Below, one piece after another: positions 4,725 through 43,643 of a stretch of DNA of 64,000 nucleotides. Each line of letters opens with the position of its first letter. The stretch's first letter is position 1. The stretch is taken from the IMG/VR virus record IMGVR_UViG_3300033145_003233, positions 248,001 to 312,000 of that record; one strand, written 5' to 3'. The notes under the pieces are model-generated. The model worked only from the letters and a program-made list of their open reading frames with translations. It was not told the DNA's origin and did no database searches. Both the position numbers and the translations under genes were made by a program. Source of the stretch: a virus.

Positions 4725-5375
4725 CTATGTAGACTGTTTTCGATTAGCCAAGACAATAGCAACAACGATACCGCCGACCACGAGCAAAGCCACGACTCCT
4801 AAGAGACCGTTATAGTTCCCCGGAGGACGACCGTACACATAGTTGTTGCGAGTCATCAGGGTGTTCATCATCACAGCATCCGACATGGCACTATACATCA
4901 TCCACGTACCAACGTTGTTCATATAACCATATCCACCATAACCAGAATTATAGGAAATGTTAACATTCGTATTCCCTACTCTCGTTGTTTGGGGGATATG
5001 ACTTGGACGGGAAGCTGGCTGTTTGGTATACTTAGAAGTATACTTAGCTGAGTTCTTACTCTTGAACGCGGCTGTCGCTTCAGACTTGCTCTTGAATGCC
5101 GTTCCATTCTTTTTAGCTGTCTCGAATGACTTTTTTGAAACAGCACTTCTTTTTGGAGCAGTTTTAGCACGACCTGTTGATGCTTTCCTCTTCGTCTGAG
5201 TTTTCGCCCTGTTGCTACTCCTATTACTACTTTTATTACTACTCCTGGCGCCACTTCTGCTGCCACCTCTGCTGCCTCCACCTCTACTGCCTCCTCTTGC
5301 AAAAACATCACTCATGCTTGCAAGAAGGAAGATTGCTGCCACCGACAGCACTACCAACCATCTAAATTTCTTCAT
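4725..5375 (-). CDS. Gly/Ser/Arg-rich membrane protein of PspA cluster
   Basis: The start at 5375 is chosen over an ATG 36 bases upstream because GGAG lies 8 bases before it and it opens a clean signal segment (residues 1-25, ending DVFARGG). A long Gly/Ser/Arg/Lys-rich region follows (about 27-130), then a Tyr/Gly/Met region (GYGGYGYMNNVGTWMMYSAM). A C-terminal transmembrane helix (about 190-210, LLGVVALLVVGGIVVAIVLA) precedes a short basic tail. It is probably anchored in the membrane with a disordered basic domain. It is the first gene after the promoter at 5429-5456 and heads the PspA-channel operon. Function is unknown. Confidence 0.75.
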   Translation of the reverse strand: MKKFRWLVVLSVAAIFLLASMSDVFARGGSRGGGSRGGSRSGARSSNKSSNRSSNRAKTQTKRKASTGRAKTAPKRSAVSKKSFETAKKNGTAFKSKSEATAAFKSKNSAKYTSKYTKQPASRPSHIPQTTRVGNTNVNISYNSGYGGYGYMNNVGTWMMYSAMSDAVMMNTLMTRNNYVYGRPPGNYNGLLGVVALLVVGGIVVAIVLANRKQST

Positions 5376-5428
5376 CGTTTGTCTCCTTTCAAGAAACATT
5401 ACAAAAATCATTTAAGATTTAAAAATGC

Positions 5429-5456
5429 ATTATACAAAATATACTTTCACTTTCAA
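5429..5456 (-). promoter_or_regulatory. Phage-type promoter P2
   Basis: TTGAAA (5456-5451) is fused to GTGAAA and TATAAT lies at 5434-5429 with a 16-base spacer. It should drive the membrane protein, DUF4178-like, DUF2170, PspA and channel genes, with a leader of about 47 bases before the GGAG-preceded ATG. Confidence 0.8.
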
Positions 5457-5523
5457 GCATTAAAAAAAATATTTATAACTGTCTATTATAAAACAAGTTA
5501 TAAAAAGCTCATTTTTCACAACT

Positions 5524-6603: not shown

Positions 6604-7182
6604 TTACTCTATTTTTCCTATTTTCGAATAATAGTATAGAATTCCCCAAGCCTTAGCTCCAACCTTCTTCCCCGAACCTAATAGCTTATTAATGTCGTCT
6701 ATATCATAAAACAACACTTCTATATCCTCACTATCTTCTTGATCAGTATAACTAATTTCTCCCGCTGCCTTTGCAAACACAATAACACATGATTCATCAC
6801 AAATACCAGGAGAAGAATAAATAGGGCAACTTACATCTGTAATTTCTGTAATATCTAGACCAGTCTCTTCCTTCAATTCTTTAATAGCGGTTTCTGCTAT
6901 ATCTTGCCCCTCTTCTATCAATCCAGCAGGGAATCCATATTCACATCCTCCAATAGCGACTCTATACTCTTTTGTAATAACAAGTCTTCTACCAGTAGGA
7001 GTATCTACAATAGGAGCAATAACAACAGCATCAACACTTGGATCTGCAATAGGATGTTCTTTTCTGGAAACAAAAGTCCATTCTACAGTATTTAATTTAG
7101 CATTAATATATTTCACAAAAAATAAATTAATCCATTTGTTATCTGTAAGTTTTTTAAGTTGTAATATTTTTCTCAAGTTCAT
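6604..7182 (-). CDS. Nudix hydrolase, ADP-ribose pyrophosphatase-like
   Basis: This 192-residue protein carries a Nudix box at about 87-109 (GLIEEGQ...KELKEETGL). The metal-binding EExG glutamates are kept, while the usual first Glu is Gln and the Arg is Lys, conservative changes seen in some members. The surrounding fold (RLVITKEYRVAIGG, YGFPAG) is most like ADP-ribose/NDP-sugar pyrophosphatases. It overlaps the four-HTH gene by 4 bases (ATGA), so they are translationally coupled. The substrate cannot be read; cleaving NAD-derived ADP-ribose or damaged nucleotides would fit a phage. Confidence 0.85.
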   Translation of the reverse strand: MNLRKILQLKKLTDNKWINLFFVKYINAKLNTVEWTFVSRKEHPIADPSVDAVVIAPIVDTPTGRRLVITKEYRVAIGGCEYGFPAGLIEEGQDIAETAIKELKEETGLDITEITDVSCPIYSSPGICDESCVIVFAKAAGEISYTDQEDSEDIEVLFYDIDDINKLLGSGKKVGAKAWGILYYYSKIGKIE

Positions 7183-8489
7183 CTGTCCATTTCTTCCAAT
7201 AACTTTTTATAACGATTTCTATAGTTAGCACTCAAGTGATCTATCTTTTCAGATAACATTATCTCAAATAATTCATCTGGATCAAAATTAGCTAACTTGG
7301 CAAGACCAAGAATCAAGAGAGGAGTAGGAGTGTAGCTCCCTCCTTCGCTTCTTGCCACATTAGAAACACTCACATTTACCTCCTTACATAAAGATAGCTG
7401 ACTTTTCCCTATTGAGGTTCTTTTATTTTTTATATAAGCAGACGTTTTTTTAAAATTCCATCCTATTCCCTTAGAAGTTCCCTCATCAAAACGGAAGGCC
7501 CACCCTCTATTATCTTTCAATTCTCCCTTTTTATATTTATCAAATACTATTCTATGTTTATAATCATACCATCTTACCCTATCAGATAAAACCATCTCAT
7601 AAATAGGCTCTAAATTTAAAAATAAAGAATTACATAATCTATATATCATCATTTGGCCAGGCAGATTCCATGAAAGACAGATACTCCTTATAAGATGAGG
7701 ATGAACTCCTATCAACTTTGACTGCTCTCCGTATGTTAATCCTCGAATTGCTTCTAAGTAAAATACAGAAAAATCAGATTGAAATTCTTCATCCCTCAAT
7801 AATACTGTGTGAGGACAAGAAACATTATCTCTATGATAAGATTTAATTAATTTTATAACTTCATCTTTATCATCTTGCTTCTCCCTGTAATACTCCATAT
7901 ATTCAGCCACTTTTTTTTCTGCATGAGCCACATAGCATTTTATCTTCTCTAATAATTGCATATGAAAGAGATCATATGGGTTAATCTTCAAACATTTAGA
8001 TATAGCAAAAATCTTCTTTAAAGGTAAACTTTTTCTACCAGCTTCTATAGATAAAAGTTCCCTCCTCTCCATCCCCATTATCTTGAGAAAATTTATTATA
8101 GTCAGAGATTGCTCAACTCTCCTATTATGTATATATCTCCCAGTTTTTTTTAATTTTAATGAAACTTTACCTCGAGAATTAGAAGTAGAAAAAAAGATAC
8201 AATTATAAGGGTTCTTGCTAAAATCTCCCTTCTTTTTATAATCCTTATAAAAAAGAACATTCTCTTTAGCAAATCTTTTAGACCATTCTATTATAATAGA
8301 TTGGCAAAAAGATGGCGGATCAATACCCATAGCTTGTGCTATGTGAAAAGCCTTATGAATAGAAGGGATGATCTCTCCTTTTTCTGTCCTCAATATAACA
8401 TCAGGATGAACTCCAGATATCTTAAAAAGATCTTTAAGTGTCCATCCCTTAGAGATTCTTTGAGAACGTACTAGTTCGGCTACATTCAT
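7179..8489 (-). CDS. Regulator with four tandem Cro/CI-type HTH domains
   Basis: The 436 residues contain four XRE-like helix-turn-helix units, each followed by a short segment with the wording (D/N)PxxLFxxxLxEK. The units lie at about 2-60 (LVRSQRISKGWTLKDLFKIS), 115-175 (RRVEQSLTIINFLKIMGMER), 245-305 (RGLTYGEQSKLIGVHPH) and 350-415 (KRTSIGKSQLSLCKEVNVS). Units two to four end in a phrase resembling NPYDLFHMQLLEKI or DPDELFEIMLSEKI. XRE repressors normally have one HTH. Four in one chain could bind a long or repeated operator. It is encoded between sigma factor and Nudix genes with ATGA overlaps on both sides. No dimerisation domain is obvious. Confidence 0.75.
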   Translation of the reverse strand: MNVAELVRSQRISKGWTLKDLFKISGVHPDVILRTEKGEIIPSIHKAFHIAQAMGIDPPSFCQSIIIEWSKRFAKENVLFYKDYKKKGDFSKNPYNCIFFSTSNSRGKVSLKLKKTGRYIHNRRVEQSLTIINFLKIMGMERRELLSIEAGRKSLPLKKIFAISKCLKINPYDLFHMQLLEKIKCYVAHAEKKVAEYMEYYREKQDDKDEVIKLIKSYHRDNVSCPHTVLLRDEEFQSDFSVFYLEAIRGLTYGEQSKLIGVHPHLIRSICLSWNLPGQMMIYRLCNSLFLNLEPIYEMVLSDRVRWYDYKHRIVFDKYKKGELKDNRGWAFRFDEGTSKGIGWNFKKTSAYIKNKRTSIGKSQLSLCKEVNVSVSNVARSEGGSYTPTPLLILGLAKLANFDPDELFEIMLSEKIDHLSANYRNRYKKLLEEMDR

Positions 8490-9085
8490 CTGCTAACAAA
8501 ATCCTCAACAACATATCCATTTTCATCTACATAGTTTTTAATTCTTCCCGCCATGTTATTAATAATTTGTCTAATTCTCTCTCTACTATAATCCAATACA
8601 TCTGCTATTTCAACCATTTCCATTCGTTGCTCATAATAATAATATTTGATTTGCTCTTCTAATGGGCTTAATTCAATTCTGTCAAACAAAAACTCTAAAT
8701 CTCCCCACTCAACAAATGGCTTATATTTCTCTCGTATAGGGCGATAATGGTATCCATATTCTTCTTCGCTTTCTCCAGCAAATTCAAAACCCATTATTTT
8801 AAATCTATCTTCCCACCTACTACGTAAATCTATATAGATAGAGAACCCTGTTCTAAAAGCAAATTTTGCATAGGTAGAAAATTTCACACCCCTAGACGGA
8901 TCATATTTCTCAGCGGCCATACACAAAAACCATATTAAATGACCAGCAACATCATCAATTTCGGGAGGCCTTATTTTTCCGCGATTTAATAACGTTTTTA
9001 TATACCACCATACCAAATTGATATTATCAGCAGCTAGTTGTTTTTGTTCTTCCGTTAAATAATGTTGTCCATAGGGTCTTCCCAT
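8486..9085 (-). CDS. Sigma-70 family RNA polymerase sigma factor (first)
   Basis: In this 199-residue protein, region 2 is seen at about 43-85 (IDDVAGHLIWFL...AEKYDPSRGVKFSTYAKFAF), the part that contacts the polymerase clamp and the -10 element. Region 4 at about 138-186 (LSPLEEQIKYYY, then MVEIADVLDYSRERIRQI) binds -35 DNA. A short acidic linker replaces region 3. It lacks region 1.1, as expected of a small alternative sigma. It overlaps the HTH regulator by 4 bases and lies 6 bases after the second sigma gene. Confidence 0.85.
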   Translation of the reverse strand: MGRPYGQHYLTEEQKQLAADNINLVWWYIKTLLNRGKIRPPEIDDVAGHLIWFLCMAAEKYDPSRGVKFSTYAKFAFRTGFSIYIDLRSRWEDRFKIMGFEFAGESEEEYGYHYRPIREKYKPFVEWGDLEFLFDRIELSPLEEQIKYYYYEQRMEMVEIADVLDYSRERIRQIINNMAGRIKNYVDENGYVVEDFVSR

Positions 9086-9091
9086 TTCATC

Positions 9092-9664
9092 CTAATCTCT
9101 TATATAAAAATCATTTTTCAATAAACTCCGCGACCTTATAATCCTTCTTAGCTTATTCAGCATCTCCATTATAATTTGCTGAATTCTTCTCCCACTAAGA
9201 TCATATTTCTTTCCCAGTTTTTCCTGAGAAATCTTATGAGAATAATATTCTATCAATATCTTTTTATCTCTTTCTTTAGCATTTATGCCATCAAGAAGTT
9301 CATATAGAAAATCTTTTTTAACCTCTGTTTTTTTAGCATCCTGAACAACACTTTCCTCAAGATAACGAATGTGGGATGAAGAACAAAAATTATATCTATC
9401 AAATTTTTCTTTCTCTTTCCCATAAATTTGTGCTATGCTTTTATTAAACCCCCAATAAGCATAAGTAGAGAACTTAGTTCCATAATCTTCATCATATTTC
9501 GAGGCAGATATACAAAAATTCAAACAAAGATCACTAATTAAATCATCCTTCAAATGAGGAAATATAAATTCTTTTTTCCTCAAATCCGAAATAAAACCTG
9601 TTAACAATCTAATATTATTAGTTACTAATTTCTGTTGTTTTTTTGTTAATCTCGTTCTGCTCAT
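9092..9664 (-). CDS. Sigma-70 family RNA polymerase sigma factor (second)
   Basis: This 190-residue protein has the same build as its downstream neighbour: region 2 at about 39-75 (DDLISDLCLNFCISASKYDEDYGTKFSTYAYWGF without the variable middle) and region 4 at about 130-178 (KISQEKLGKKYDLSGRRIQQI). The two probably arose by duplication but are well diverged. It is the first gene of the sigma-HTH-Nudix operon. The -10 box of promoter P3 is 8 bases from its ATG, so translation appears nearly leaderless. Confidence 0.82.
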   Translation of the reverse strand: MSRTRLTKKQQKLVTNNIRLLTGFISDLRKKEFIFPHLKDDLISDLCLNFCISASKYDEDYGTKFSTYAYWGFNKSIAQIYGKEKEKFDRYNFCSSSHIRYLEESVVQDAKKTEVKKDFLYELLDGINAKERDKKILIEYYSHKISQEKLGKKYDLSGRRIQQIIMEMLNKLRRIIRSRSLLKNDFYIRD

Positions 9665-11114: not shown

Positions 11115-11537
11115 CTATATTGGACTTCTTCCTGTCAATACTCTAGTCTCATCATCTCTCAACATCATTTCCAAGACTGCTTTGATGTCCATGATATAAA
11201 GCCTCATTCGAGGATCTGAAGCATTCATCTCAGCAATAATGCTATTTACAATGAGATCAATTTCTTCAGCCCCAATTTCAAGAGTCTCTGCATCATTAAG
11301 ATGTTGCTTGAATGTGGAAAGAGCTAAAATCCACTTCTCAAGATCTGCCACATCACACGGCGAAACATTTTCTGCTGCACATGCATCTAAAGCAAGCATT
11401 TTTTCAAACTCAAGATGATTAACAGCAATACTGGTCACAAGAACAAATGTATCCTTGTGAGAAGGATCTCCTATTGTGCATCCCGTAAAACCCAAGGACA
11501 TAACAAACAGTAATCCAATTAACAATAACTTTTTCAT
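11115..11537 (-). CDS. Putative lipoprotein, hypothetical
   Basis: This 140-residue protein has a signal peptide (1-19) ending in FTGC, a near-lipobox whose Cys20 would be lipidated. The mature part is helical and acidic with no known domain (LEFEKMLALDACAAENVSPCD, trimmed here). It is anchored to a membrane, probably the host's. It lies just downstream of the tmRNA gene (27 bases between them) and may be read through from the same promoter. Confidence 0.6.
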   Translation of the reverse strand: MKKLLLIGLLFVMSLGFTGCTIGDPSHKDTFVLVTSIAVNHLEFEKMLALDACAAENVSPCDVADLEKWILALSTFKQHLNDAETLEIGAEEIDLIVNSIIAEMNASDPRMRLYIMDIKAVLEMMLRDDETRVLTGRSPI

Positions 11538-11563
11538 AATTTCTCCCCTAAATATGTTTTTAA

Positions 11564-11909
11564 TGGAGCCGGACGCATCGAAGCGTCGTCCACTGTAGCT
11601 TTAAATCAAACATCTACATGCATAGTTAGTTATTTAGGTTTCGCAAATCAAATCCAAACTAACATGGTTTATCATCGCTATCTCAAATTAGTTTCGCATC
11701 ATATTCTCTTGAGAAAAAGAATATTCAACTATCCTGTTGTCGTGCTTGCTTCCCTAACAGGAGTCAGGAGCAAACAGCCTAAATTGGCTTAGGCAGCCAT
11801 TGCGTAACTGTTGCCAGTTAAAGCTTTTTAGTAGATTTTTACTGAGCCAACTACTATCTCAGGCATGCAATCCAATTCTCTATTCTACGTGTCGATACCT
11901 TTCGACCCC
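11564..11909 (-). ncRNA. ssrA: tmRNA (transfer-messenger RNA), one-piece
   Basis: Read on the minus strand, the 346 bases show the tmRNA plan. The 5' end GGGGTC pairs with GGCTCC at the 3' end (acceptor stem, two wobbles). Next come GGTATCGAC and TTGCATGCCTGAG, matching the conserved D-like arm and helix 2 start. Then there is an A-rich resume region and a tag frame ending GGC AAC AGT TAC GCA ATG GCT GCC TAA (11815-11789). The encoded tag ends GNSYAMAA and, if resumption is at GCT 11824, reads ALTGNSYAMAA. The stop lies in a GCCTAA/TTAGGC hairpin as in other tmRNAs. A T-arm (GACGC TTCGAT GCGTC) precedes the acceptor; its loop is 6 rather than 7 bases. CCA is not encoded (the next bases are TTA). 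Its role is rescue of stalled ribosomes and tagging of their products for proteolysis. Confidence 0.93.
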
Positions 11910-12183
11910 TTTTAATTTTTTAAAGAACAAAAACGTCAATACATTAGACAGGATTGGCTTATTACACCATCTCTAAGAGCAAAGTGCAACTCTCCGCTAC
12001 CCGCTAAGATTTCTGGCTTGCCTACGCGCCTGACTACCAGATGCCCTCTATACCATTGGTCAATTTTTATACCCACTGTTTATTAAACTCTTAACCCTCA
12101 CCTTGTGGGCTAATAACGGGGTCGGAGCTTTTCAAGCGGTTCAATGTGTCGCACCACATCACCAATGTATTAACATTTTAATT
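11910..12183 (-). other. Structured transcribed leader upstream of tmRNA
   Basis: About 275 bases lie between the promoter and the tmRNA 5' end with no open frame. Several strong hairpins are visible (ATGTG-GTGCGA-CACAT near 12155; GCCCAC with GTGGGT around 12071-12110; AGAG with CTCT near 11980; TTAGA with TCTAA near 11945-11975). It reads like a stable RNA or a processed precursor. I could not fold any part into a convincing tRNA; the T-loop consensus is missing. Confidence 0.35.
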
Positions 12184-12189
12184 ATCGGT

Positions 12190-12217
12190 ATTATACCAGA
12201 AAATTATCACTTGTCAA
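12190..12217 (-). promoter_or_regulatory. tmRNA promoter P4
   Basis: TTGACA (12217-12212), then AGTGATAA, then TATAAT (12195-12190), spacer 16. This is the closest of the set to a housekeeping sigma-70 promoter. It directs transcription into the tmRNA region. Confidence 0.8.
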
Positions 12218-12635: not shown

Positions 12636-13496
12636 TTAATCAAGTAGATTTGAAGTCCCTTTTAACATATCCCTAGTAACAGAAAGATCCTTAGCAAGCC
12701 ATGGGTCTCCGCAGAAATCAGCATAATAAGAATATGGCAAATAACCATAACCAGCTGCTCCCCAAAATTGACTCCAACTATTTTTAAGTTGAAAAACCTG
12801 CTCGGCATCATCATATCCAATAACTAGTATTGCATGCCATCCCCAATCTTCATTTGGCTTAGAAGGATAAGGGATTTTACCATTCACTAAAAGACCATAC
12901 ATTTCTTCAAAGCAAGGCATAGCAACAACAGCTGGACCTTCGACTAATGCTCTTTTAAGCCCTTCAACACTACCACTCTCAATGCTCCAATAAGAATCAA
13001 TAGTAGCCCACTTAGCAACCATGTGCGCCCATTGTTTAGGCTCTCCTATATTAATTGGATCGTCTCGATAAGGCCATCCTTTTTCAGTCGGAACGCCAAT
13101 CTTATGAATTACTTTAAAACCAGACCTAAGATTAGTTCCCTGTACATCTGGTCCCCATGGGTCTATCTTCTTAGCATTCCAATATACCCATTGTTCTGAA
13201 AAATTATATTCTCTATCTTTTCTATGATCTTTCTTACCAGCCTCTACTTCTGCCTCATGCTCTTTTCTCTCCTGCCACTCTTTTAATGCGCATACAGCAA
13301 AACCAACACAACTTCCCAATGCTCCTTGATACTTTACCGGAGACATTTCTGGTATCCTATCTATTTTGGGAGGTAAACTAGATGCAGTTTTTAAGATTCT
13401 ATTCTTGTCAGGAAGAGCCTCAAACTTATAATCTTTTTCGTCTGGAGGATCTTTAAATAAACCTCCCGATAAAAACGGTTGCTTAATTTTGCTCAT
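12636..13496 (-). CDS. Papain-like (C1A) cysteine protease
   Basis: This 286-residue protein has the C1 catalytic set: Gln and Cys in YQGALGSCVGFA (C63), His in GWHAILVIGYDD (H221), and Asn in LKNSWSQFWG (N239). After the His motif, GYGYLPY completes the fold as in papain. No signal peptide is seen, so it acts in the cytoplasm or on the virion. The canonical CGSCW is AL-GSCVG, a variant found in bacterial and viral members. Possible roles are processing phage proteins or attacking host proteins. Confidence 0.88.
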   Translation of the reverse strand: MSKIKQPFLSGGLFKDPPDEKDYKFEALPDKNRILKTASSLPPKIDRIPEMSPVKYQGALGSCVGFAVCALKEWQERKEHEAEVEAGKKDHRKDREYNFSEQWVYWNAKKIDPWGPDVQGTNLRSGFKVIHKIGVPTEKGWPYRDDPINIGEPKQWAHMVAKWATIDSYWSIESGSVEGLKRALVEGPAVVAMPCFEEMYGLLVNGKIPYPSKPNEDWGWHAILVIGYDDAEQVFQLKNSWSQFWGAAGYGYLPYSYYADFCGDPWLAKDLSVTRDMLKGTSNLLD

Positions 13497-16396: not shown

Positions 16397-16936
16397 TTAT
16401 TCTTCCAGTTTAGAAATAATGTAATTAATTATCCCGTCCTGATCAAGACATGAACGACTCGTAAAAGATATTTTATTCGCAACCAGAACCCCCTTCACTG
16501 AAATATCTATACGTTTTGCCTGTGGCAACGTTTCATATCTTCCAACTTCATCATAAAATTTATCTTCCCTGTCAATAAAAATATGAAGAGCAGGATACAA
16601 CTTCTCAAATTCTAAAGCTGCTAATCTCATAGGCTCCTGCAAGGGCACTTTATGATGATAAGCATAAAAATATTGAAGCATAAGAGGGGAGTCACTAACT
16701 ATTAAATCTACGCCTGCTCTTAGCCTGATATCCTCTTTCTGGATCTGCCCTGCTTGAAGATAAAAACTATCACAATCTTTTGGGATGCGAGGAATATAGG
16801 TCCAATCTTTTATACACTCATCTACTAACTCAATATCATATCCTTTAAAACCAAGTTGAGCACGTATATTAGTAGCTGTTATAGATTTTCCACAACCTGC
16901 TCCACCATATAAATTTATTCTTCTTATCTTACTCAT
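16397..16936 (-). CDS. P-loop NTPase/kinase-like protein
   Basis: The 179 residues begin with a Walker A motif GGAGCGKSITA (11-21). The DLIVSDSPLMLQYF segment (about 77-90) fits the Walker B/lid region of small phage nucleotide or AAA-type kinases. An ELVDECIKDW segment resembles the NadR/AAA-28 group. The substrate is unknown. It adjoins the methyltransferase and HD genes in what looks like a nucleotide-metabolism operon. Confidence 0.65.
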   Translation of the reverse strand: MSKIRRINLYGGAGCGKSITATNIRAQLGFKGYDIELVDECIKDWTYIPRIPKDCDSFYLQAGQIQKEDIRLRAGVDLIVSDSPLMLQYFYAYHHKVPLQEPMRLAALEFEKLYPALHIFIDREDKFYDEVGRYETLPQAKRIDISVKGVLVANKISFTSRSCLDQDGIINYIISKLEE

Positions 16937-41117: not shown

Positions 41118-43643
41118 TTATACCTCCGCCACAATCAAAGATAAAACAGCAGTATCTTCTATCATGTCAAAAACTTCTTTCCTAAGTTTTTCTTTATTAT
41201 CTGGATTCCATATAATCCTAACTTGAGTACCCTTGATATCATCTACTTTTCCATATTCTTGAGGATTAGCCATCCCCTTCCTTCTGTCTCTTACCCTCAT
41301 ACCTACTTGATATTGAGGAAGAGCTTCTTTCGGACCTTTCACAATTTCTGTTTTATCTTGATATAACTTATCAATAGCCTCCGGTAAAACTTGTGACAAT
41401 TTTACTTGCTTAAACCAATTCCCTGACATTAGCGGCTCCCTATATTTATTAATTATTTCTGGGGCCATCGCATGGACGGCCTGAGTAGCTTGAACTTTAG
41501 AATTCTCAAAAACATTTTGTTTCTCATTCCCGTCTGGCATAGTAGCAAAACTCATATCAATCTTGCCAGTATCTTGAAGCTCTTTAAGTCTATTTAATAC
41601 TTCTTTTATATAACCAGTAGAAGGACTTAAAACAGGAGTAAGAGTAGAAAATATATTTATTATATCACTTCCATTTATCACTGTTCCTCGAAATATCCCA
41701 GTTGGACTTTCTACAAAATTACTAAAATTTTCAAAGAATTTAGTATGTTTTTCTTCATTATAATTATCTGGTTGAGATGCCATATCATCAGCTTGAACAT
41801 GATACAAAACGTACTTCCATAAGTCTTTATGTTCTTCATCTTTACCATGCATTCTTGTATCTCTTAAAAATCTACCCCTACCTTTAGGCCCCCACTTATC
41901 AGCAGAATGAGGACGCATATGTAATCTTATAACCTGATTAACTATATCTCTCTCATCTCTACCAACACCAATAGATTTAAGGATCTGATTTGCCATCTTA
42001 GTAGATGCTCTCTCGTGATCTATATATTGCATCTGTTCCACATTCTTAGGATGAGGCTTCTGCACACCACCTTTCATCTTTCCAAAATCATGAAATAAAG
42101 CAGCAAGATTCATAAGGCCCCTCATATGATCACTTTCTCCATTATCTTGCATTATCTTATTCATATTTTTTACAACTTCTAAAGTATGATCTAATAAATT
42201 ATATTTATGATAAGGAGTTTGTTGATTCATCATTATACCTTCAGGATGCAAATCATCCATTTCAGGAACTTTAAATGCTGACTTATATAAACCAGTACTA
42301 AATAATAATTTAAGAGAATCAACTGGATTTCCCATTAACATCTTCATTAATTCTGGTCCAGCTCTTTCAGAAGCTACCTTCTTACTATATGATTCATGAA
42401 TAGAAGGATCTCCCATTGCCTTAACAATAGAATCATCAATTACGCTATTAGGAAAACGACTATGAAAACGCAAAACTCTCAAAAGCCTAAGAGGATCTTC
42501 ATGAAAAGTTTTATATGATTCATCTGGAGTTCTTAAAACTATTTGACCATCTCCCTCTATCCCCAAATCTTTTTTCCCGCCAACAAAATCATCTACCTCA
42601 CCTGTATCTATATTATAATAAAGAGCATTGATAGTTAAATCTCTTCTTCTAACATCTTCCTTGGGATTATTTGTAGTAGTAATTTGTGGTTGACGACTAT
42701 TGGGATCAGGATAATGCTCTGTTCTCATTGGAACAAATTCTATTTTTTGGCCGAATAAATCAACTGCTCCAACCATCAACTTATCATCAGGAGCTTTCTC
42801 TAATGGATCAGCAGATTTCTCCAAACTTACCTTATATGCTTTAGAAACATCAATTATATTATGCCTAACGGCTGCTTCAGCAACTAATTGAGCGAAATCA
42901 TAACCAGGCATATCAATAGCTATATCTATGTCATCACTAGGTATCCCCAATAACTTATCTCTCACCCATCCACCAGCTACTCTCATTTGAATATTAAGCC
43001 CGTGTCCTTTTTTAACTGTCTTTAAAAACTCAAATATGTTTTTCTCCTTAGGAGTAAGAGATAATTCAGAATGACCCCCGATTACTCTCTGCCCCTTTTT
43101 AAAAACCTTCTTCCCAGTAGTAGATAATCTAGAAGTAGGAAAAGAGAGACCAGGAACACTATTAGAAACCAAACACTCCACACCGATATCAAATTCTTCT
43201 ACTATATTTTTAACCGAGTCAAAAGATCCCATAGCAGCAGGCTCATTAACAATAATTCTTATAAGAGAATCAGATATATCTAACTCTTCTGCAAAGTTTA
43301 GTTGCAATCCCCCAAAGCGACTCTTTTCAGCCCCTGTTTTTTGAGAATCTAGTACTAAAAATATAGAATACTCTTTAAAATATTTATCAGCAAACCTCTG
43401 AGAAAACAGAGGAATAGGACTAAAAAAAGATATCTTATTCTTAATTAAAAAACCTCTTAAGTCTATAATATCACAAGGAAAAACCATATGTCTTGTAGGC
43501 AAGAAAGCAGCAAGGTCATCAATTAATCTGTCCGAACAATCAGCCACATAGGAAAATAATGACCTAAATCTTTGCAAACAGGATAAAATAACATCCTTAT
43601 CCACGTTTATTGGATCTCCTCTTATTTCTCGAACAACCCCCAC
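41118..43643 (-). CDS. cca: Large CCA-adding-like tRNA nucleotidyltransferase with HD domain
   Basis: The open frame has 841 residues from GTG 43643; a GTG at 43604 is also likely. The N-terminal 195 residues are unassigned. The nucleotidyltransferase core starts RVAGGWVRDKLLG (221-233) and continues with SDDIDIAIDM (metal acids D238, D240), RRDLTINA (333-340) and EDPLRLLRVLRF (382-393), the class II CCA enzyme set. An HD domain has LAALFHDFGKM (about 513-523). After a linker, GNWFKQVKLSQ (741-751) and a KOW-like VGMRVRDRRKG (780-790) end the chain. Classical CCA enzymes have about 400 residues, so this is a fusion. It could mature the phage tmRNA, whose gene lacks CCA. Confidence 0.8.
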   Translation of the reverse strand: MGVVREIRGDPINVDKDVILSCLQRFRSLFSYVADCSDRLIDDLAAFLPTRHMVFPCDIIDLRGFLIKNKISFFSPIPLFSQRFADKYFKEYSIFLVLDSQKTGAEKSRFGGLQLNFAEELDISDSLIRIIVNEPAAMGSFDSVKNIVEEFDIGVECLVSNSVPGLSFPTSRLSTTGKKVFKKGQRVIGGHSELSLTPKEKNIFEFLKTVKKGHGLNIQMRVAGGWVRDKLLGIPSDDIDIAIDMPGYDFAQLVAEAAVRHNIIDVSKAYKVSLEKSADPLEKAPDDKLMVGAVDLFGQKIEFVPMRTEHYPDPNSRQPQITTTNNPKEDVRRRDLTINALYYNIDTGEVDDFVGGKKDLGIEGDGQIVLRTPDESYKTFHEDPLRLLRVLRFHSRFPNSVIDDSIVKAMGDPSIHESYSKKVASERAGPELMKMLMGNPVDSLKLLFSTGLYKSAFKVPEMDDLHPEGIMMNQQTPYHKYNLLDHTLEVVKNMNKIMQDNGESDHMRGLMNLAALFHDFGKMKGGVQKPHPKNVEQMQYIDHERASTKMANQILKSIGVGRDERDIVNQVIRLHMRPHSADKWGPKGRGRFLRDTRMHGKDEEHKDLWKYVLYHVQADDMASQPDNYNEEKHTKFFENFSNFVESPTGIFRGTVINGSDIINIFSTLTPVLSPSTGYIKEVLNRLKELQDTGKIDMSFATMPDGNEKQNVFENSKVQATQAVHAMAPEIINKYREPLMSGNWFKQVKLSQVLPEAIDKLYQDKTEIVKGPKEALPQYQVGMRVRDRRKGMANPQEYGKVDDIKGTQVRIIWNPDNKEKLRKEVFDMIEDTAVLSLIVAEV

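Follow-up and report, generated by a model that had tools for sequence, protein, structure and literature searches.

Does the locus at positions 11564-12217 of the 64,000-nt stretch of viral DNA analysed here (the window) encode a tmRNA, an RNA that releases stalled ribosomes and labels the proteins they were making for degradation, and would such an RNA serve the phage that carries it? The virus contig to which the window belongs is 547,943 bp long, has 33.6% G+C and yielded a single tmRNA gene. The original prediction, made from the letters of the DNA, was of a phage-encoded, one-piece tmRNA with a tag ending in GNSYAMAA and its own promoter. Our analysis located a complete tmRNA gene on the minus strand, and the comparison with related phages suggests that it is very probably a working phage tmRNA for trans-translation during infection.

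The tmRNA identity was borne out by the Rfam search. RF00023 matched the locus over its full length (model positions 1-374) with 105.6 bits (E 3e-40; gathering cut-off 47), and the tag in this match agreed with the one read from the letters. The elements followed the standard order of TLD, H2, PK1, tag frame, H5, further pseudoknots and 3' TLD, in keeping with a one-piece molecule; the differences from the RF00023 model included a 5' D region one base shorter and a CCA end that is not encoded. The permuted two-piece model RF04321 gave partial matches only (21.3 and 20.1 bits against a threshold of 47), and the window RNA, which has a full mRNA-like domain, is not a TLD-only form of the DS6A type. 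The folding energy of the tmRNA was below that of all 100 shuffles (z -3.9, 0/100). The coordinates of the features are collected in Table 1; the predicted interval proved right for promoter, leader and tmRNA taken together, whereas the tmRNA alone occupies 11909-11564.

Table 1. Features of the tmRNA locus and of associated genes in the window
Feature	Position	Strand	Details
Sigma-70-type promoter	12190..12217	-	TTGACA 12217-12212, 16-nt spacer, TATAAT 12195-12190
Leader, promoter to tmRNA	11910..12189	-	about 280 nt; bracketing 16-bp stem 12179-12164 / 11945-11930
tmRNA (ssrA) gene	11561..11909	-	RF00023 match, covariation over four phages
Mature tmRNA before CCA addition	11909-11564	-	346 nt
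Acceptor 5' strand GGGGUCG	11903..11909	-	pairs with 11571-11565
Pseudoknot PK1	11829..11862	-	CUGAG/CUCAG (11862-11858/11846-11842) and UAGUAG/CUACUA (11856-11851/11834-11829)
Tag frame and stop UAA	11789..11815	-	GGC AAC AGT TAC GCA ATG GCT GCC TAA
Hairpin H5, GCCUAA/UUAGGC	11777..11794	-	contains stop codon
T-arm GACGC-UUCGAU-GCGUC	11572..11587	-	6-nt loop, closing pair C53-G61
Acceptor 3' strand CGGCUCC	11565..11571	-	discriminator A at 11564, then TTA
140-aa downstream ORF	11115..11537	-	no Pfam match; N-terminus lipoprotein-like
Papain-family cysteine protease	12636..13496	-	upstream syntenic marker; PF00112 3.3e-14
CCA-adding-enzyme-like gene	41118..43643	-	PolyA_pol head PF01743 1.2e-24 and HD PF01966; PHROG 2244 tRNA nucleotidyltransferase 4.4e-43

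The details of the RNA that had been read from the letters, the D-like arm text among them, were all present on the minus strand. The complementarity noted between the ends corresponds to a 7-bp acceptor stem with an alanine-type G3.U pair, and the CCA end is indeed not encoded, since TTA directly follows the discriminator A. The AMAA ending of the tag, with its hydrophobic -AA terminus, and the stop codon inside a hairpin held, but GNSYAMAA turned out to be the whole 8-aa peptide and not only its end, with the resume codon GGC lying after PK1.

Related loci were recovered by searches with the tag and with the neighbouring protease. A tag scan detected the same tag in a 494-kb phage (L006-L008), whose tmRNA is divergent in all else and has a 7-nt T-loop of the ordinary kind; a laxer tag scan detected the 351-kb contig L040, in which the genes are ordered as in the window; and a protease profile search added two further contigs, L347 and L335, in which the protease is followed by a tmRNA. 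When the locus was compared with 50,697 deposited phages by blastn (word size 11), no match was found. The papain-family protease lies upstream of the tmRNA in L040, L335 and L347 as well; the 548-kb virus contig, together with the position of the gene downstream of this same protease in four related virus contigs, upholds the description as phage-encoded. The tags were GNSYAMAA in the window, GNNYAMAA in L040, GNSFSMAA in L335 and ANSYAMAA in L347, so that the tag frame stayed open and of the same kind across the relatives despite the divergence of the remaining RNA.

We aligned the tmRNAs of the window, L040, L335 and L347 and scored 48 pairs of the acceptor, T-arm, H2, PK1 and H5 for covariation. 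The results showed that 96.4% of the helix cells were paired and that 16 of the 48 pairs had changed on both sides, values that none of 500 shuffles reached in either case (0/500 each), while sliding the partners by 1-3 columns lowered the pairing to 35-42%. The G3.U and first acceptor G-C pairs were invariant in all four phages. Two pairs covaried in stem 1 of PK1, where CUGAG/CUCAG is replaced by ACGAG/CUCGU in L040 with stem 2 kept, and three in the T-stem; H5 was mostly conserved, with 83% of its cells paired. The T-arm and the tag frame are thus both conserved in relatives and, given the covariance hit as well, none of the grounds named beforehand for refuting the prediction applies. Across three relatives, the acceptor, T, H2 and PK1 helices show compensatory changes, which indicates that the tmRNA gene is under selection; no other result speaks as strongly for functional maintenance of the RNA as this four-phage covariation.

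The promoter, originally described as sigma-70-like, matches the sigma-70 consensus at 12/12 positions and is the sole perfect match in the 64-kb window, where 0.08 would be expected; the whole 548-kb record contains 10 perfect TTGACA/TATAAT promoters. Upstream of the relatives' tmRNAs, TTGACA..TATAAT was found in L040 and L335, and TTGATA..TATAAT in L347. Between promoter and tmRNA lies the leader, which the original prediction had missed along with the six-nucleotide T-loop. A leader homologue occupies the same place in L040 (1790-2043) and is shortened in L335 (5190-5320; nhmmer 5.9e-9); no leader is present upstream of the tmRNA in L347, and the leader is therefore not needed for the tmRNA. 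Searching for homologues with TTGNCCAANGGTATNGAGGGC gave 13 matches, of which only L040 was genuine, the others being coding-like DNA of unrelated phages. The leader had no Rfam match, permissive mode included, and the minus strand carries no 60-aa protein ORF there. Its fold energy was mildly unusual (z -1.4 in the window, -1.9 in L040), and its closing stem measures 16 bp in the window and 14 bp in L040, at equivalent places and with different sequence; covariation between these two sequences was not above column shuffles on a MAFFT alignment. The leader may be transcribed, and is a candidate for a separate stable non-coding RNA or for a processing leader. In L040, an additional G+C-rich, RNA-like stretch of about 240 nt (1549-1790) separates a perfect promoter (1521-1548) from the leader; nothing credible was found for it in Rfam (permissive mode), no copy was found in the window's phage, and a portion of its 5' end is repeated close to apparent tRNA genes of the same phage.

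The remainder of the contig was inspected for partner genes. No terminator-like site was found between the tmRNA and the 140-aa ORF downstream of it. The record contains 29 tRNA genes, 27 of them clustered at record positions 171686-183550 and two elsewhere, which cover all amino acids but tyrosine (ARAGORN list) and nearly all do not encode CCA, those listed mostly having ordinary T-arms; the CCA-adding-type enzyme is perhaps a candidate finisher of the 3' ends of both the tmRNA and these phage tRNAs. No match to SmpB (PF01668) was found in the 548-kb record, which is possibly incomplete, or in 10 other tmRNA-bearing phage records, possibly incomplete too, and ClpP had no match in the 548-kb record. 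Partners from the host are therefore likely, and host SmpB and ClpP presumably serve the phage tmRNA, although a phage-encoded SmpB may lie beyond the possibly incomplete record. The window also encodes a clamp loader and topoisomerase I, two adjacent small sigma-70-family genes with regions 2 and 4 (8486-9085 and 9092-9664, minus strand), a double HTH_3 protein beside them (7179-8489), and a DNA N6/N4 methylase (PF01555; 15191-16396, minus strand) adjoining an AAA_28 protein (16397-16936).

The steps of trans-translation, namely alanylation, SmpB and EF-Tu binding, resumption, tagging, termination and proteolysis, are well established for tmRNA. Starting from the computed gene, structure, covariation, promoter match, tag frame, T-arm variant and lack of SmpB or ClpP matches, we infer the expression, charging, partners and tagging of the window tmRNA, and its benefit to the phage, as follows. 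The consensus promoter would give rise to a precursor transcript, from which the leader would be removed at G1, presumably by RNase P, and to which a CCA-adding enzyme, perhaps that of the phage itself, would attach CCA. Host alanyl-tRNA synthetase would charge the RNA with alanine through the G3.U acceptor, and the charged tmRNA would bind host SmpB and EF-Tu and enter ribosomes stalled on broken or run-off mRNAs. The ribosome would then resume at GGC, add GNSYAMAA and stop at UAA, so that ribosomes would be recycled and the product marked for a ClpXP-type protease; as was originally proposed, host proteases would be expected to recognise this tag.

The T-arm departs from the known form. The canonical tmRNA T-arm has a 7-nt loop with a conserved closing G-C pair (340G-C348 in E. 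coli; PMC1168896), whereas the T-loop of the window is 6 nt long and closed by C-G. The 7-nt, G-C-closed loop is typical of tmRNA and not demanded by the Rfam cut-off, and other tmRNAs above the cut-off share the six-nucleotide loop, which is therefore a variant within the RF00023 family and no ground for exclusion. All four related phages (4/4) have it. A pattern scan for a six-nucleotide loop beside an alanine-type acceptor end found at least 119 viral contigs; the stem, whose pairing was not part of the pattern, was perfectly paired in almost all the viral matches listed, and the cases examined with Rfam were a mix of one-piece and permuted tmRNAs. The same pattern occurred in 9 of 768 bacterial genomes, with a paired stem in only one, a permuted tmRNA in a bacterial contig (L208:1501-1680, from the Pseudomonadota search). 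This contrast indicates that the variant is strongly enriched in viruses and not exclusive to them, and the L208 case led us to reject a strictly viral variant. We also rejected the six-nucleotide loop as the usual viral form: among viral tmRNA ends with the acceptor CRGCTCCA, about 4 had it compared to 103 with seven nucleotides, many of which may be prophage ends. The variant is a minority among viral tmRNAs.

Loop length was tied to the polarity of the closing pair. Among the matches listed that were one-piece viral tmRNAs whose 5' acceptor strand matched, all six-nucleotide arms were closed by C-G or T-A (32/32) and all seven-nucleotide arms by G-C (75/75). In the same set, ARAGORN called 9/32 six-nucleotide genes compared to 60/75 seven-nucleotide genes. 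ARAGORN, named along with the covariance search as a check on the prediction, called no gene at the window locus; this missing call, and a T-loop one base below the conserved 7-nt loop, count against a working tmRNA. The window, L040, L335, L347, L114, about 27 more one-piece tmRNAs and many permuted ones share a UUCRAU loop with a Y53-R61 closing pair, whereas the tags and mRNA-like domains of six-nucleotide viral tmRNAs differ widely and several are permuted two-piece molecules. A tree built without the T-arm grouped the window, L040, L335, L347 and L114 (98% SH-aLRT); overall this tree was weakly supported, and the six-nucleotide state was scattered over it with 17 changes, although it may still have had a single origin. 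Also noted were tmRNA-like genes of about 130 nt with a full acceptor and a six-nucleotide T-arm (L108:480-608 (G050), G035:94010-94139 (L091), possibly L158), which have almost no mRNA-like domain and resemble the DS6A TLD-only RNA, and a viral contig in which a six-nucleotide-loop tmRNA and a GOLLD RNA (326.6 bits) lie about 1.6 kb apart (L076:3097-3491 and 5084-5493).

Two other functions can be weighed against trans-translation. The RNA could be a decoy that blocks trans-translation in the host by titrating its SmpB or EF-Tu, a role put forward for the RNA of phage DS6A, whose TLD-only molecule, or a similar one, is reported to inhibit tmRNA (PMC4131195, PMC11915505); the strong promoter would suit such a titrating RNA. 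A decoy would, however, not need the mRNA-like domain, pseudoknots, resume frame and stop that are all kept and covarying here, and the conservation of the mRNA-like part makes this role less likely, to the point that we consider it improbable. Alternatively, the tmRNA might act mainly by degrading selected host or stalled proteins early, thereby supplying amino acids, with rescue as a secondary effect. Early degradation has been put forward in the case of the marine phage Melnitz (PMC9004378), but the sequence of the window cannot separate degradation from general rescue, and we place this possibility a shade lower again.

Two further explanations would deny the gene a function or the loop its reality. 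That the gene is a host-derived copy in decay, or what is left of an attachment site, would be consistent with the T-loop one base short and with the many viral contigs that hold only the tmRNA 3' end without the 5' half; the window gene, by contrast, is complete and lies in the interior of the 548-kb record, and decay is contradicted by the compensatory changes in four phages and by a short T-loop that all four have with a re-paired stem, which makes this explanation highly improbable. That the short loop is an assembly or sequencing error in an ordinary tmRNA is the least probable of all, close to negligible: errors that drop one base are common, but the loop is common to the independent contigs L040, L335 and L347, and the inverted closing pair goes with it in every listed six-nucleotide case. 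We accordingly rejected the loop as an error or as a peculiarity of the window.

Beyond a working tmRNA, a broader reading is conceivable, if rather doubtful, in which the six-nucleotide Y53-R61 T-arm would be an adaptive signature of viral tmRNAs, for example one that sets them apart from host tmRNA in T-loop modification or in recognition by SmpB or nucleases. It would have arisen several times or been passed between phages, in one-piece and permuted forms alike, and have been largely overlooked; in this same reading the window leader would be a new phage non-coding RNA. Such an oversight would follow from the reliance of surveys on ARAGORN, which most of these genes escape; the phage tmRNA surveys PMC7162821 and PMC9004378 both used it. 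The papers on phage tmRNAs that were consulted, PMC4131195, PMC7162821 and PMC9004378 among them, make no mention of a six-nucleotide T-loop, which may still have been described. In practical terms, ARAGORN-based surveys of phages will miss most six-nucleotide-loop genes, the strict association of closing-pair polarity with loop length offers a simple sequence signature, and this signature raises the biochemical question of how the T-arm affects folding, modification, SmpB binding and nuclease sensitivity.

Among bacterial tmRNAs, one genome scan found GN[D/E/N/S/T]YAMAA tags mainly in Bacteriovoracaceae, other Bdellovibrionota and Zixibacteria. The window tmRNA shares the 8-aa tag length, the tag ending and the resume glycine with them; beyond the tag and TLD there is little sequence identity, and all 22 complete ones (22/22) have a 7-nt, G-C-closed T-arm, unlike the window. 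These bacteria were selected by their tag, which makes the comparison one-sided, so a host among Bdellovibrionota or Zixibacteria is kept as a lead only; the phage tag may be matched to host proteases and adaptors, and it suggests a host group that could be tested for this 548-kb phage. Virus-carried tmRNAs are known from Bacillus phage G, mycobacteriophages Bxz1 and Wildcat, huge phages and the marine phage Melnitz (PMC4131195, PMC7162821, PMC9004378), and the Wildcat tmRNA, a precedent for use during infection, is that phage's most highly expressed lytic gene (PMC7474061). The Melnitz tmRNA is two-piece, whereas that of the window is one-piece, and huge phages have been reported with tmRNAs and, in some, SmpB (PMC7162821), in contrast to the phage of the window, which has no SmpB match. 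A tmRNA in a huge phage is therefore known in kind, and what is new here is the T-arm variant, the closing-pair rule and the poor detection of such genes.
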